From contig NZ_CP007790.1 in NCBI RefSeq assembly GCF_000835165.1, positions 186,001 through 250,000 on the forward strand: a stretch of 64,000 nucleotides of DNA. The letters are read 5' to 3'. Positions 18,603-25,390 of this stretch are shown piece after piece (positions within the stretch are counted from its first letter, which is position 1; every line of letters starts with the position of its first letter). This stretch comes from Corynebacterium marinum DSM 44953. GTDB lineage: Bacteria; Actinomycetota; Actinomycetes; Mycobacteriales; Mycobacteriaceae. Under the pieces are notes generated by a model. That model did not search any database, had not been told where the DNA came from, and worked only from the letters and a program-made list of their open reading frames with translations. The position numbers and the translations under genes were made by a program.

Positions 18603-20492
<1,890 letters not shown>

Positions 20493-20706: not shown

Positions 20707-20749
20707 GGAAAACCCCTGGCCCCGCCAGATGTCGGCGGAGCCAGGGGGT
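20707..20749 (-). terminator. Terminator after the 34-residue gene
   Basis: On the minus strand ACCCCCTGGCTCCGCC pairs with GGCGGGGCCAGGGGT around a short loop, followed by TTTTCC. It lies 12 bases after the stop codon at 20762 and insulates the micro-gene from the leuL promoter. Confidence 0.8.
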
Positions 20750-20761
20750 CGGACTGTCGAG

Positions 20762-20866
20762 CTAGAAGTGGGCGAGGAGGGTTCGGAACGGCCAGGTGAA
20801 GAAATCCCAGGCGAACACGAACGGGCTGGAGAGCCAGGTACCGATTTCTGCGGAGCCGTGGAGCAT
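20762..20866 (-). CDS. 34-residue hydrophobic peptide, porin-like micro-gene
   Basis: A 34-codon gene starting MLHGSAEIGTWLSSP and ending FRTLLAHF, with seven Phe/Trp between residues 11 and 27. It has no signal peptide. A good ribosome site (GAAAGGAC, eight bases before the ATG) and its own terminator argue that it is real. Size, lack of signal peptide and hydrophobic/amphipathic make-up recall the tiny channel-forming proteins of the corynebacterial outer (mycolate) membrane, PorA and PorH (about 45-57 residues). Sequence similarity to those is not visible by eye. A signalling or toxic peptide is an alternative. Confidence 0.65.
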   Translation of the reverse strand: MLHGSAEIGTWLSSPFVFAWDFFTWPFRTLLAHF

Positions 20867-20973
20867 GATTCTTGTCCTTTCGGGTGATGGATGAACCAGG
20901 CCTTATTTTAGCCTCCGGGGCAACGGGTGGCCAGGGTCCGGAAAAATTCAGGGCCCCGGCCCGGCAGCAGAAA

Positions 20974-21009
20974 ACCCCGCCCGGGCCGGATGAACGGCTC
21001 GGGCGGGGT
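20974..21009 (-). terminator. Terminator after the 43-residue gene
   Basis: On the minus strand ACCCCGCCCG (21009-21000) pairs with CGGGCGGGGT (20983-20974), followed by a T-run (TTTTCTGC). It lies 36 bases after the stop at 21045. Confidence 0.8.
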
Positions 21010-21044
21010 GGTCAGACTCGAGAAGTGCTCGAGCTGAGGGGTTC

Positions 21045-21176
21045 CTACTCGGAGGAGCCGGAGGACAGCAGGCCCTCGAAGGCGCCGAAGATGCCCTTGA
21101 CGAACGCGATGACGCCGTCGAAGAGGCCCGCGGAGGTGGAGGACAGGGCGGTGAAGAAGGTCTCGATGGACTCCAT
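21045..21176 (-). CDS. 43-residue amphipathic peptide, PorA/PorH-like
   Basis: A 43-codon gene starting MESIETFFTALSSTSAG, with a middle GVIAFVKGIFGAFEGLL and an acidic SSGSSE end. It has an obvious ribosome site (AAAAGG, seven bases before the ATG at 21176) and a strong terminator. The pattern of an acidic start, alternating hydrophobic helix and no signal peptide closely resembles corynebacterial PorA (which starts MENVYEFLG and has 45 residues). In that family such peptides are O-mycoloylated on Ser and form channels in the mycolate outer membrane; Ser residues are abundant here (11-14 and near the C-terminus). The assignment is by resemblance and needs confirmation. Confidence 0.75.
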   Translation of the reverse strand: MESIETFFTALSSTSAGLFDGVIAFVKGIFGAFEGLLSSGSSE

Positions 21177-21428
21177 GGTGGTGCCTTTTAGTTGAATGGT
21201 TGAACTGGCATCCACCTTAGTCAGGAATGTCTCAGAACAGCAACATTTAGATAAATTATTTGACTGTGGGGCCTCCTGGGTGGGCGTCGAGAATCGGGCG
21301 GCCAGCCGGGCGGAATCGACGAGAAGAAATCTTCGATGAGCAGCGTGAACGGCAAAGGAGTGAAACTGAGCGTGAGATCTCCTTGTGGTCGGGGTGGCGG
21401 CACGCCCGTTCGTAGTTAGGATGACGCG

Positions 21429-22541
21429 GTGACCACCCGTGATTCCAGGCTGCGCCTGCTTGTCGACGCCGCATTCATCTTCCTCGTCGGCGCCGCCTTC
21501 CGCATCGCCGCACTGGCCGTCCTCGCCCGGGCGAACAATGATTCGCTGGGCGGCCTGCTGAACAAGTGGGACTCGGATTATTACCTGGGCATCGCGGAGG
21601 CCGGCTACTTTGCCGCGGACCTGAACACGGACGTTCCCGTCCACCACCGGACGCTGGCCTTCTTCCCCGGATTCCCGGCGCTGGTCCGGTTGGTTCACGA
21701 GGTGACCCGGCTGGACGTCGTCACGGCCGCGGCCACGGTCAACGTGGTGGCCGGCGTTGCCATGACCGCCGGCGCTATGTCGATCGCCTGGCGCATGGGG
21801 GCAGGCCGGGCGGGCCAGATTGGGGCGGGCGTCCTGGTGTCCTCGGCGCCGATGTCCATCACGTACTCCATGCCGTACTCGGAGGCGCTGTTCGGGGCGC
21901 TGGCGTTCTGGTCGATCGTGTCGCTCATGGACCGCCGGTGGGGCCTCGCGGCCGGCTTGATCTTCCTGCTCGGCTTCACCCGGTTGACCGCGGTGGCGAT
22001 GATCGGGGTGTTCGGTCTGGTGCTGCTCCTGCAGGCCCGCCGGGACCGGCGTGCCTGGGCTTGCCTGGCGCTGACCCCGTGGTCCCTGCTGGGCTACCTC
22101 GCCTGGGCGAGCTGGCACACGCGCGATGAGGGAGGGTATTTCGGAATCCAGGAGGCGGGCTGGCACTCAGGCTTCGATTTCGGCGCGGCGACGGTGCGTT
22201 GGGTGTGGGAGGTCCTCACCACCAGCGCCGAGGGCGGCTACCTGCTCAGCGTCGGCGTGATGGCGGCGGCCGTCGTGGCGCTGGTGGCTGCATGGGGACG
22301 CACCCCGCTGGAGGTGTGGTGGTTCTCGGCCGCCATCCTGGCCACCGTCCTGCTCTCCGACGGCATCATGCACTCCCGCCCCCGCCTGCTCCTGCCGGCG
22401 GTGATCCTGCTGCTGCCGTGGGTGCTCCGGGCCGCGGAGAGGCTCCCCCGGGGTTGGCAGCTGGGCGCCGCCGCCGGGTGGGTGGTGTTCGGGGCGTGGT
22501 TCTCGGCGTACATGCTCGCCGTATTCGAGTGGGCGATCTGA
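21429..22541 (+). CDS. PIG-V-like integral membrane mannosyltransferase
   Basis: A 370-residue protein with about ten TMs. The luminal loop after TM1 carries KWDSDYYLGIAEAGY (Asp residues expected to be catalytic in GT-C enzymes) and TLAFFPGFPALVRLV, the pair of motifs that defines the PIG-V/GPI18-type polyprenyl-phosphate-mannose-dependent transferases. These add mannose to a lipid or protein on the outer face of the membrane. The acceptor in corynebacteria is not evident here. The GTG at 21429 is six bases after TAGGAT (21417-21422), indicating a leaderless transcript. It is flanked by the micro-genes. Confidence 0.8.
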   Translation: MTTRDSRLRLLVDAAFIFLVGAAFRIAALAVLARANNDSLGGLLNKWDSDYYLGIAEAGYFAADLNTDVPVHHRTLAFFPGFPALVRLVHEVTRLDVVTAAATVNVVAGVAMTAGAMSIAWRMGAGRAGQIGAGVLVSSAPMSITYSMPYSEALFGALAFWSIVSLMDRRWGLAAGLIFLLGFTRLTAVAMIGVFGLVLLLQARRDRRAWACLALTPWSLLGYLAWASWHTRDEGGYFGIQEAGWHSGFDFGAATVRWVWEVLTTSAEGGYLLSVGVMAAAVVALVAAWGRTPLEVWWFSAAILATVLLSDGIMHSRPRLLLPAVILLLPWVLRAAERLPRGWQLGAAAGWVVFGAWFSAYMLAVFEWAI

Positions 22542-22980
22542 ACCGGTTCTGGCCAACTTGGCGCGAGATTCCCCCCGCAATGGGGTGGTTTCCGGGGAAT
22601 GTAGTTGCGCCCGACGTGCGCCTTCCGCTTCAAGTTGTATTGAAGCCACAATCAGTTAACGAAGAGCCTCACACTGTCCGAGCGCCTCTGATTTTCCGGG
22701 GATAAGTCTCATATTTCGCCGGGAGATCTCGATAGAACGGACGGAAACAGGCACTGCTTCTGGTCTCTGGGGATTGTCTGGCGCGGTTTCGATCCATATC
22801 GCGTCCTTCTGGCTCGCCCAGATTGATGACCTGGACAGCCAGGAGAAAACCGTGGCCCATCGCAACCCCCTCGGGGTCGCGTGGGGCCGTACAGCCCCCG
22901 GTGTCTCGGGTGCGCTCCCGCAGGAACGGGCAGTAACCATGGACAACCGCAACGCCGACACCTTGGAGAGGAGATAGACC
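22542..22980. other. Intergenic stretch upstream of the 51-residue gene
   Basis: This 439-base stretch separates the mannosyltransferase stop from the plus-strand micro-gene. Only short plus-strand frames without coding character are present. On the minus strand it is spanned by the read-through tail of the DMT gene (22669-23985), which also does not look like protein. Some short palindromes (GAACCGGTTC at about 22539) are visible, but no convincing promoter or terminator. It could hold a long untranslated leader for the 51-residue gene. Confidence 0.4.
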
Positions 22981-23985
22981 ATGCTCTTTCTTCCGCTTCC
23001 CATCGTGATCGAGAACTTCCAGTTCGCCGGATCGTCCCTGCTCGACTTCTTCGTCGGCAGCTCCATCTGGCTGTACGACATCGTCGCTGGCACCGGCAGC
23101 TCCATGACGGAACTGTTCACCGTGACCTCCTCCTGATCGGAGGTCACCCGCAGACACCACCGTCGCGGCGACCATGGCGAGGAACGCCAGCGCCATGAAC
23201 AACCAGCCGGTCACCGTCGACACCTGGAACTTCTCGCCCAGAACGAGGTAACCCAGGGAAAACGCGACGATGGGTTCAGAGATCGTCATGGCGGGCAGGG
23301 AGTTCTTCAGCGCGCCGGCGTTGAAGGAGTACTGCTGGACGATGGTGCCCAGGGTGGCGCCGAGGATGAGGGCGTAGGTCTCCCAGTTGGTGATGATCGC
23401 CCACACCCCGCCGTAGATGAAGATGTCCACGAACGCCTTGCTCAGCACGGCGACGTAACCGAAGAGGGCGCCGGTGACGATGCCCAGGAGCAGCGCTTTT
23501 TCCCGGCGGATCTGCTTCTGCGCCACCCGTTCCAGGGTGATGAGCACCACGGCGCCGACAGCCAGCGTCGGCAGCCAGCGTTCCAGCGGGGGCTGCGGAT
23601 CGCCAGGCAGGGGTCGGCCGAGCATGACCAGCACGGTGACGCCGATGGTGAGAGTACCCGCCCAGAACATCTCGTGGGCGGAGATACGGCGGCCGTCGTA
23701 CTTCGCGGCCAGCGGCAGCGTGAACATCAGGGACAGGACGAGCACGGGCTGCACAACCAGCAGGGTGCCGAAGCCCAAGGCGACTACCTGCAGCCCGTAG
23801 CCGAGCAGGGCGGTGCCGGTGCCGGCCCACCACAGGGGGCGGCTGATGGCATTCCAGAACGGGGAGCCTCTGAGGGAACCGTCCGCGGGGGCCTCCTCCG
23901 CGATGCGGTGGCGCACCACGGTTCCCCACGCGATGGTGAGGGCGGAGGCCAGTGCGAAGAGCACGGCCAGCAGATTGCTGTGCAC
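22669..23985 (-). CDS. DMT/EamA-family transporter with read-through tail
   Basis: The first 280 codons from the GTG at 23985 (VHSNLLAVLFALASALTIAW) encode a ten-TM transporter of the EamA/DMT type, ending at GWLFMALAFLAMVAATVVSA. The substrate is unknown. The frame does not stop there but continues for about 158 codons to 22669 with low-complexity hydrophilic sequence rich in Gly, Asp and Arg that runs antisense to the 51-residue gene. A TGA in the next frame occurs at the GGGTGA string at 23149-23144, exactly where the family normally ends, so an indel in a short G run (or a sequencing error) could have removed the stop. In-frame codons upstream to 24051 add no family-like sequence. Confidence 0.75.
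   Translation of the reverse strand: MHSNLLAVLFALASALTIAWGTVVRHRIAEEAPADGSLRGSPFWNAISRPLWWAGTGTALLGYGLQVVALGFGTLLVVQPVLVLSLMFTLPLAAKYDGRRISAHEMFWAGTLTIGVTVLVMLGRPLPGDPQPPLERWLPTLAVGAVVLITLERVAQKQIRREKALLLGIVTGALFGYVAVLSKAFVDIFIYGGVWAIITNWETYALILGATLGTIVQQYSFNAGALKNSLPAMTISEPIVAFSLGYLVLGEKFQVSTVTGWLFMALAFLAMVAATVVSAGDLRSGGGHGEQFRHGAAGASDDVVQPDGAADEEVEQGRSGELEVLDHDGKRKKEHGLSPLQGVGVAVVHGYCPFLRERTRDTGGCTAPRDPEGVAMGHGFLLAVQVINLGEPEGRDMDRNRARQSPETRSSACFRPFYRDLPAKYETYPRKIRGARTV
22981..23136 (+). CDS. 51-residue hydrophobic peptide, porin-like micro-gene
   Basis: A 51-codon gene starting MLFLPLPIVIENFQFAGSS, with a middle LLDFFVGSSIWLYDIVAG and a Ser/Thr-rich end (MTELFTVTSS). The ribosome site GAGAGGAGA at 22966-22974 is the strongest in the neighbourhood, with good spacing. 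There is no arginine or lysine and no signal peptide. Like the two minus-strand micro-genes nearby, it has the size and character of corynebacterial mycolate-membrane channel peptides, although the similarity is compositional. It is convergent with the DMT gene and ends where the conserved part of that transporter ends. Confidence 0.65.
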   Translation: MLFLPLPIVIENFQFAGSSLLDFFVGSSIWLYDIVAGTGSSMTELFTVTSS

Positions 23986-24124
23986 GCGCTCAACCTTAGT
24001 GAAACTGAGCCTTTGCGCAGGATCAGACGCCCGTGGACACCTGCGACTCAAATGCTGCCCGAGCGGGGTTGACAGGTACGATAGGGCAGAACTTTGTGCA
24101 CCCTAGACGAAAGGCGACCTGCCG

Positions 24125-25390
24125 GTGGCTCTGATCGTTCAGAAATATGGAGGCTCCTCCCTGGAGAGCGCGGAACGTATCCGCGCCGTGGCGGAGCGGA
24201 TCGTGGCCACCAAGAAGGCAGGCAACGACGTCGTGGTCGTCTGCTCCGCAATGGGTGACACCACCGACGAGCTGCTGGACCTGGCGTCCCAGGTCAACCC
24301 GGTCCCGCCGGCCCGCGAGATGGACATGCTGCTCACCGCCGGTGAGCGCATCTCCAACGCGCTGGTCGCCATGGCGATTGAGTCCCTCGGAGCGGAGGCG
24401 CAGTCCTTCACCGGTTCGCAGGCGGGCGTGCTGACCACCGAGCGGCACGGCAACGCGCGCATCATCGACGTCACCCCGGGCCGCGTGCGGGAGGCCCTCG
24501 ACGAGGGCAAGATCTGCATCGTCGCCGGTTTCCAGGGTGTGAACAAGGACACCCGTGACGTGACCACCCTGGGCAGGGGTGGCTCGGACACCACCGCGGT
24601 GGCCCTGGCGGCGGCGCTGGACGCTGACGTCTGCGAGATCTACTCGGACGTCGACGGCGTCTACACCGCCGACCCGCGCATCGTGCCCAACGCCCAGAAG
24701 CTGGAGAAGCTCTCCTTCGAGGAGATGCTCGAGCTGGCGGCCGTCGGTTCGAAGATTCTGGTCCTGCGCGCGGTGGAGTACGCGCGTGCGTTCAATGTTC
24801 CCCTGCGAGTTCGCTCGTCTTACAGCAATGATCCCGGCACCCTGGTGGCCGGTTCGATGGAGGATATCCCCGTGGAAGAAGCAGTTCTCACTGGCGTAGC
24901 TACCGACAAGTCCGAGGCCAAGGTCACCATCCTGGGCATCCCCGACAAGCCGGGCGAGGCGGCCACCGTGTTCCGCGCCGTCGCCGACGCCGAGATCAAC
25001 ATCGACATGGTGCTGCAGAACGTCTCCTCCGTGGAGCACGGCACCACCGACATCACCTTCACCTGCCCGCGTTCCGACGGACCCCGTGCCATGGAGCTGC
25101 TGAAGAAGATGCAGGCCAAGCACGGCTGGTCCAACGTGCTCTACGACGATCAGGTGGGCAAGGTCTCCCTGGTCGGCGCGGGCATGAAGTCCCACCCGGG
25201 CGTCACCGCCGACTTCGCCGAGGCGCTCCGTGACGCCGGTGTGAACATCGAGCTCATCTCCACCTCGGAGATCCGCATCTCCGTCCTCATCCGCGAGGCC
25301 GACCTCGACGATGCCGCCCGCGCCCTGCACGAGAAGTTCGAACTCGGCGGCGATGCCGAGGCGACCGTCTACGCCGGCACCGGCCGCTAG
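24125..25390 (+). CDS. lysC: Aspartate kinase
   Basis: A 421-residue aspartokinase that phosphorylates L-aspartate at the entry to lysine, threonine and methionine synthesis. The kinase domain begins KYGGSS (8-13). Two ACT domains (about 260-410) form the site for concerted lysine plus threonine inhibition; residues around [12 protein letters not shown] match the wild-type, feedback-sensitive C. glutamicum enzyme, with the two Thr conserved. The GTG at 24125 follows GAAAGGCGACC. C. glutamicum lysC also encodes a separate beta subunit from an internal start; the equivalent ATG ([13 protein letters not shown]) is at 24857 and would give 177 residues. asd follows 30 bases later, an operon. Confidence 0.97.

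Follow-up and report, generated by a model that had tools for sequence, protein, structure and literature searches.

What are three micro-genes doing between leuA and lysC of Corynebacterium marinum DSM 44953? They lie in a stretch of 64,000 nucleotides of the 2.73-Mb genome (contig NZ_CP007790.1, positions 186,001 to 250,000), referred to below as the window, in the order leuA (-), A (-), B (-), a PIG-V mannosyltransferase gene (+), C (+), a DMT transporter gene (-), lysC (+) and asd (+). A preliminary description took A, B and C for three porin-like genes forming one additional channel or peptide locus. We find that they are three unrelated families and that the likeness to porins holds for B and fails for A and C. 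With confidence that goes about half the way, we propose that B is a PorA-type peptide of the mycomembrane, that C is a micro-protein partner of a cassette for sortase-anchored surface proteins, and that the leuA-lysC gap is a variable site gathering envelope micro-genes.

Family C and sortase substrates

Fifty-one proteins, mostly of 40-60 amino acids (aa), were found to constitute family C, and their named sources include Corynebacterium glutamicum, C. alimapuense, C. suranareeae, C. stationis, C. flavescens, Rhodococcus, Prescottella and Tomitella. A profile made from seven Rhodococcus-type members retrieved 28 proteins, those with named sources coming from the last three genera, and matched the main C profile with E 1.4e-24. 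As judged by profile match, the window's C is a member of this family. The dipeptide GS is present in all 51 proteins and invariant at one place in the 35 that were aligned; the N-terminal half is hydrophobic, and the structure model comprises one short helix at residues 19-37, predicted with low confidence (pLDDT, the predicted local distance difference test, of 62). The ratio of non-synonymous to synonymous polymorphism (pN/pS) is 0.08 and 0.18 in two close pairs of relatives and 0.50-0.67 for the window's C compared with four relatives. A match is present in 24 of 242 Corynebacterium genomes (25 matches), as do 18 of 401 genomes in a family-wide search, while a sample of the order (298 genomes, first C profile) yielded the own genome and two marginal matches, a class-wide sample (226 genomes) the own genome alone, and plasmids no match for the C proteins P0041 and P0008. 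Weak matches of C relatives to Flp_Fap, pyrE and VOC were put down to chance.

Over all C loci, 33 of 40 members lie directly behind the gene of a sortase substrate; the window's C is not among them. In Corynebacterium, where we examined 24 loci from 23 genomes and excluded the 25th match (G178), a marginal one of 22 residues inside a longer frame, 17 copies of C follow, at 23-163 bp counted to the start of the profile match, a same-strand open reading frame (ORF) that ends in LAxTG and a hydrophobic tail. These substrate-like frames are open over 318 to 2096 codons, the shortest being near a contig end. Outside Corynebacterium, in all 16 loci, which carry four genus labels (eight g82, one g86, three g94 and four g78), C is preceded at 2-173 bp by an ORF on the same strand that closes with LPVTG, LAVTG or LANTG and a tail, with the qualification that in L178 a shorter anchor-less frame lies nearer to C and that several frames are cut by the end of the stretch; their sizes are 1560 to 1620 aa (L197, L198, L200), and 1860 aa in an incomplete one (L201). 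A sortase gene was found downstream of C in 14 of these 16 loci by tblastn with the sortase of L198, a count that includes the genome from which the query came (L184) and a fragmented match (L182); in L192 and L194 (g78, with a short C) no sortase was found in the stretch. The sortase beside C in L198, the one that was classified, belongs to class E.

The stalks of the C-linked proteins vary, including T-Q ester, DUF5979, immunoglobulin (Ig), CshA-type and ice-binding-like ones, so the presence of C goes with the class of anchored proteins and not with any single stalk domain. A motif GVxxW near the N-terminus occurs in 10 of 16 C-linked large proteins and in none of 20 unlinked ones, an exploratory comparison in which the pattern was chosen after viewing the linked set and about six of the unlinked and some of the linked proteins have no visible true start; three linked proteins from outside Corynebacterium, with visible starts, have GEGVVSRW. 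Among the titles and abstract beginnings listed in our literature search, none deals with micro-genes that follow sortase-substrate genes in the genera concerned, and we found no earlier description of family C.

Three further observations concern the surroundings of C and of sortases. The window genome has a single match to PF04203, a class E sortase that is unlinked to C and 57% identical to the C-linked sortase of L198; right behind its gene, at about 1440-1288 (-) of L202, we noticed by eye an ORF of about 50 aa, apparently membrane-spanning, which we read as another sortase-linked micro-gene. The C of G092 (L053, 1-760) lies behind a lipoprotein-like gene, which to the eye is similar to one close to the sortase in L202; this C may be at the sortase site, but the contig stops. 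Finally, a 28.6-kb IMG/VR contig (L196) carries C together with the terminal part of a gene for an LPVTG protein; this is host DNA that was misassigned, or else a mobile copy.

History of the orphan C

The window's C appears, on the simplest history, to have lost a large gene that stood between it and the mannosyltransferase gene. A large gene lies between leuA and C in G145 and G044, with DMT and lysC following in that order. In C. alimapuense (L034) the mannosyltransferase gene is followed by the beginning of a large secreted-protein frame, which continues past the contig end; this frame has no NCBIfam match at 1e-8, and its start resembles, by eye only, a von Willebrand A domain. A C protein of the window's type from the same species (P0007, 68% identity) is encoded on a 1.9-kb contig, which we would place behind this large gene. 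In C. alimapuense (L041, 6781-16687) leuA is surrounded by three secreted-protein genes; two of them have an anchor and a C of their own, and the third is cut off by the contig end. In the gap upstream of the window's C, no remnant of a large gene was seen in the six translations, which were viewed without a formal protein search, and blastn against the fetched loci returned only the end of the mannosyltransferase gene and the copies in L032. Compared with L032, identity is about 83% over the mannosyltransferase gene and rises to 96-99% from about position 22240, inside this gene, a sharp change that we regard as a sign of recombination at the leuA-lysC site.

Family B and its likeness to PorA

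Family B comprises 25 proteins, one of which (P0066) carries the UniRef name 'Porin'. Its profile matched that of PorA with a probability of 81% and E 1.2e-5, the reference profiles consisting of 22 PorA and 16 PorH sequences drawn from the loci that a family search of 121 genomes returned, with matches in 27 and 3 of them above the cut-off. When the comparison was re-run the score was 23.5, as against at most 15.6 for 150 column-permuted profiles and 13.2 for the reversed one, which bears out the earlier remark that the 43-residue product resembles PorA. On the strength of this profile-level homology, B is best described as PorA-like. The structure model of B consists of one helix (pLDDT 74). 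One Ser is invariant in the 22 PorA sequences, and the Ser pair of B is nearly invariant; the former is taken as the residue modified by MytC, reported to be S15 in PorA of C. glutamicum (PMC11927696).

B had been supposed to be additional to the porA and porH genes, and it is, as are A and C, since the window genome has its own porH-porA pair at the groEL2-PPK2 site, which is reported to house porins in other species (PMC3792995, PMC5944148). There groEL2 was recognised from its sequence, porH is over the cut-off of NF033938, and the 33-aa porA matches NF033925 with E 9.6e-5, yet below the cut-off.

Seven B loci have context. Five are in the leuA-lysC gap (the window, C. pollutisoli L033, C. 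lemuris L035, L036 and L040), and two, in C. hylobatis and on contig C58 of C. lemuris, are prophage-like. The order of genes is integrase, helix-turn-helix (HTH) protein, B and anti-repressor in L049/L100, and integrase, metalloprotease, HTH protein, B and ParB-like protein in L050; the PorA-like homologues themselves (L100, 7467-7604; L050, 7850-8083) thus lie beside lysogeny-control genes. A subset profile of four prophage sequences found one match in viral contigs.

Family A

The ten sequences of family A align with an invariant W and two invariant P. Accepted members, namely those of the window, L032, L033, L035, L036, L039, L040 and L056, sit between leuA and the lysC side (the contig of L032 stops short of lysC), and the gene is duplicated in L036 and L056, with two copies in each. 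Matches in L055 (G015) and L057 (G142) were judged spurious, and a weak, below-cut-off Pfam match to PF07860 was put down to chance. The pN/pS values range from 0.35 to 1.15, and profile-profile comparison detected no significant similarity of A to PorA or PorH. A is a clade-specific hydrophobic peptide, probably of the envelope.

Layout of the locus

The features of the locus are collected in Table 1. Ribosome sites precede all three genes (GAAAGGA for A, AAAAGG for B, GGAGAGGAG for C), and similar sequences recur before most homologues, as the preliminary description would lead one to expect. Its claim that the minus-strand genes have their own terminators is likewise supported: A is followed by a hairpin of 15 pairs with a TTTT tail (minimum free energy, MFE, -35.3; z -4.0), B by a hairpin and TTTT (MFE of an 86-base stretch -48.1; z -3.8) that was seen through folding and not picked up by the terminator pattern scan. 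The hairpin at the end of C has no T run and a z of -2.5, and 4 of 200 shuffles fold equally well. As had also been noted, no signal peptide is evident in A, B or C by inspection; neither Pfam nor NCBIfam has a family above cut-off for any of them. The hydrophobic moment was reached by 27 of 1000 shuffles for B, 153 for A and 165 for C. In a search of 151 genomes of the genus with single sequences (E<=0.01, own genome counted), A matched 8 genomes, two of which look spurious, B 4 and C 14.

Chance ORFs are ruled out by homologues, ribosome sites and synteny. Homologues at the same place in relatives are found for each gene: A recurs in the gap, B does so at the loci given above, and the C of G140 lies between mannosyltransferase and DMT genes. 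The view of the three genes as one channel or peptide locus did not survive, since their distributions differ and the window's C is an orphan. In the flank, asd was identified by NCBIfam. The DMT frame stays open for more than 100 codons beyond the end of its relatives' similarity (about position 23155) and runs antisense over C, and annotation of this frame could hide C.

Table 1. Features of the leuA-lysC region, in coordinates of the window
Feature	Position	Strand	Basis
leuA (context)	18603-20450	-	NCBIfam
Intrinsic terminator of A	20713-20747	-	pattern scan and folding
Micro-gene A, 34 aa; W, P and P invariant in family	20762-20866	-	ORF and homologues
Promoter-like site 5' of A, 9 of 12 consensus positions	20905-20933	-	weak evidence
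Terminator-like hairpin of B, then TTTT	~20974-21009	-	coordinates read from fold
Micro-gene B, 43 aa, PorA-like	21045-21176	-	ORF and profile comparison
PIG-V-type mannosyltransferase gene	21429-22541	+	Pfam, E 7.9e-6
439-bp gap upstream of C	22542-22980	+	
DMT transporter frame	22669-24051	-	
Micro-gene C, 51 aa, orphan member of family of sortase-substrate companions	22981-23136	+	ORF and homologues
9-pair hairpin spanning stop codon of C, without T run	23122-23147	+	folding
lysC (context)	24125-25390	+	NCBIfam

Objections and alternative explanations

A number of findings weigh against the functions proposed for B and C. Seven of the 24 Corynebacterium loci have no ORF of a sortase substrate in front of C: the window and G140, both with C between mannosyltransferase and DMT genes, G238, where C is between asd and lysC, G193, G062 and G041, which form a 40-aa sub-family behind a DMT gene, and G092, with C behind a lipoprotein-like ORF. 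In 20 Corynebacterium loci, as far as their sequence was retrieved, and in the window, C has no sortase gene next to it. Anchors are detected in at least 175 of the 242 genomes by a profile built from 13 C-linked ones, compared with 24 genomes that have a C match, and none of the 13 unlinked anchors that were parsed (14 were tried) has a C-like ORF behind it; C is therefore not needed for anchoring in general. At the sequence level C was rejected as a porin, its profile having no significant similarity to those of PorA or PorH, and the terminal SS of the window's C is found in 9 of the 51 C proteins. As for B, it has a weaker resemblance to PorH as well (probability 58%, E 9.7e-5; in the re-run 21.2 as against 16.2 for the reversed profile, with none of 150 permutations as high). 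It falls below every curated porin cut-off, the window's B being left without a family and one of 23 B members scanned with NF033925 reaching E 0.03, under the cut-off. In a joint alignment its conserved Ser pair is shifted by about three columns relative to the Ser of PorA, and pN/pS of 0.63-1.76 indicates no clear constraint, which may reflect fast change or weak selection.

Some of these observations would also fit other explanations. C could be an accessory of the sortase reaction in the inner membrane, involved in capture or release of the substrate, and not a peptide of the mycomembrane; the order substrate, C, sortase outside Corynebacterium agrees with this, as do the hydrophobic N-terminal half and the helix of the low-confidence model. 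Sortases are widespread, however, whereas the named C matches are confined to genera with mycolic acids, most anchor-bearing genomes have no C match and no sortase adjoins C in Corynebacterium, so that we consider such a role possible but rather unlikely. Much the same can be said of the idea that the window's C no longer functions and is what remains of a lost cassette, A and B being the only working genes of the three. The missing substrate gene and the DMT frame that crosses C antisense are in its favour, but the reading frame, ribosome site and conserved residues of C are intact and other orphan copies keep readable peptides; the 96% aa identity of the window's C to that of L032, which might be held against decay, says little, since the surrounding block is about 97% identical, non-coding DNA included. 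That C imitates the sorting signal, as a decoy or mimic, seems very improbable: the conserved GS of C often follows TT and anchors have TGAN, but the T before G is replaced by V, I or A in several members, and profile comparison of C with the 13 anchors finds nothing (E 0.55).

That all three products are extra porins, as the resemblance of B to PorA and the small size and lack of an evident signal peptide in all three might suggest, is hard to reconcile with the profile comparisons of A and C and with the association of C with sortase substrates, and we regard it as quite improbable. Less improbable, though still a weak candidate, is that B spreads on prophages and alters a host porin so as to exclude superinfection, the chromosomal copy having been captured. 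The C. hylobatis locus of B is prophage-like, occurs also on IMG/VR contig 2867450923 and adjoins an anti-repressor, and the locus on contig C58 of C. lemuris has an integrase; phage Cog is reported to require ProtX for adsorption and PorAH at a later step (PMC9671496). On the other hand, most B loci with context are in the leuA-lysC gap, the B protein P0053 has no match in 50,697 phage records, and viral contigs gave no match to the full B alignment.

Proposed roles and comparison with known systems

By analogy with PorA, B would leave the cytosol without a signal peptide and would probably be O-mycoloylated, and its amphipathic helix may reside in the mycomembrane, where it would form or modify a channel. 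C would most likely act at the envelope beside the anchored protein, in a cassette with the order sortase substrate, C and, outside Corynebacterium, sortase; it may be a small insert in the mycomembrane that allows a stalk anchored in the wall to extend to the surface or, alternatively, a membrane accessory of anchoring. In the window genome the neighbouring large gene would have been lost and C left alone. We put forward with considerable doubt a more specific proposal, in which C is a dedicated, signal-less port or collar in the mycomembrane, co-encoded with giant sortase-anchored proteins whose stalks pass through it.

Signal-less micro-proteins of the mycomembrane have precedents in PorA, PorH and ProtX (PMC12632848, PMC5310785), which are described as being without known signal sequences and mycoloylated at S15, S56 and S37, respectively, the latter two being the second-to-last residues of proteins of 57 and 38 residues (PMC5310785). 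Like the PorA family (NF033925; PorACj, NF038022), B has about 40 aa, no signal peptide by inspection, a predicted single helix, a conserved LSS and a significant profile match; unlike it, B scores under the cut-offs, has no LIGLV-type end, is encoded away from groEL2-PPK2 and from porH, and has relatives in surroundings that look like prophage. C can be likened to ProtX (Cg2875 of C. glutamicum) by description and not by sequence: both are very small and have no signal sequence of the classical kind, ProtX is reported to be modified at Ser37 of 38 and the window's C ends in SS, whereas the accounts available to us describe no sortase-substrate context for ProtX. The sortase islands srt1 and srt2 of Rhodococcus equi, in which an LPVTG substrate is reported to be paired with a sortase (PMC2947987), share this pairing and the LPVTG motif with most C loci outside Corynebacterium, but the part of that report available to us mentions no micro-gene between the two. 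T-Q ester (VaFE) repeats are above cut-off in four of eight Corynebacterium C-linked proteins scanned, whereas other C-linked proteins carry Ig, DUF5979, CshA-type or other domains.

Implications

Genes this small are easily overlooked, and families B and C are therefore probably under-annotated. As B indicates, PorA-like peptides are not confined to the known porin locus and occur in prophage-like regions as well. C keeps company with anchored proteins in five genus labels, which provides a concrete gene to delete. In the parts of the literature that we covered, no explanation is given of how peptidoglycan-anchored proteins pass the mycomembrane; if C does serve as a port, it would constitute a step of surface display peculiar to bacteria in which proteins are anchored to peptidoglycan beneath an outer membrane.

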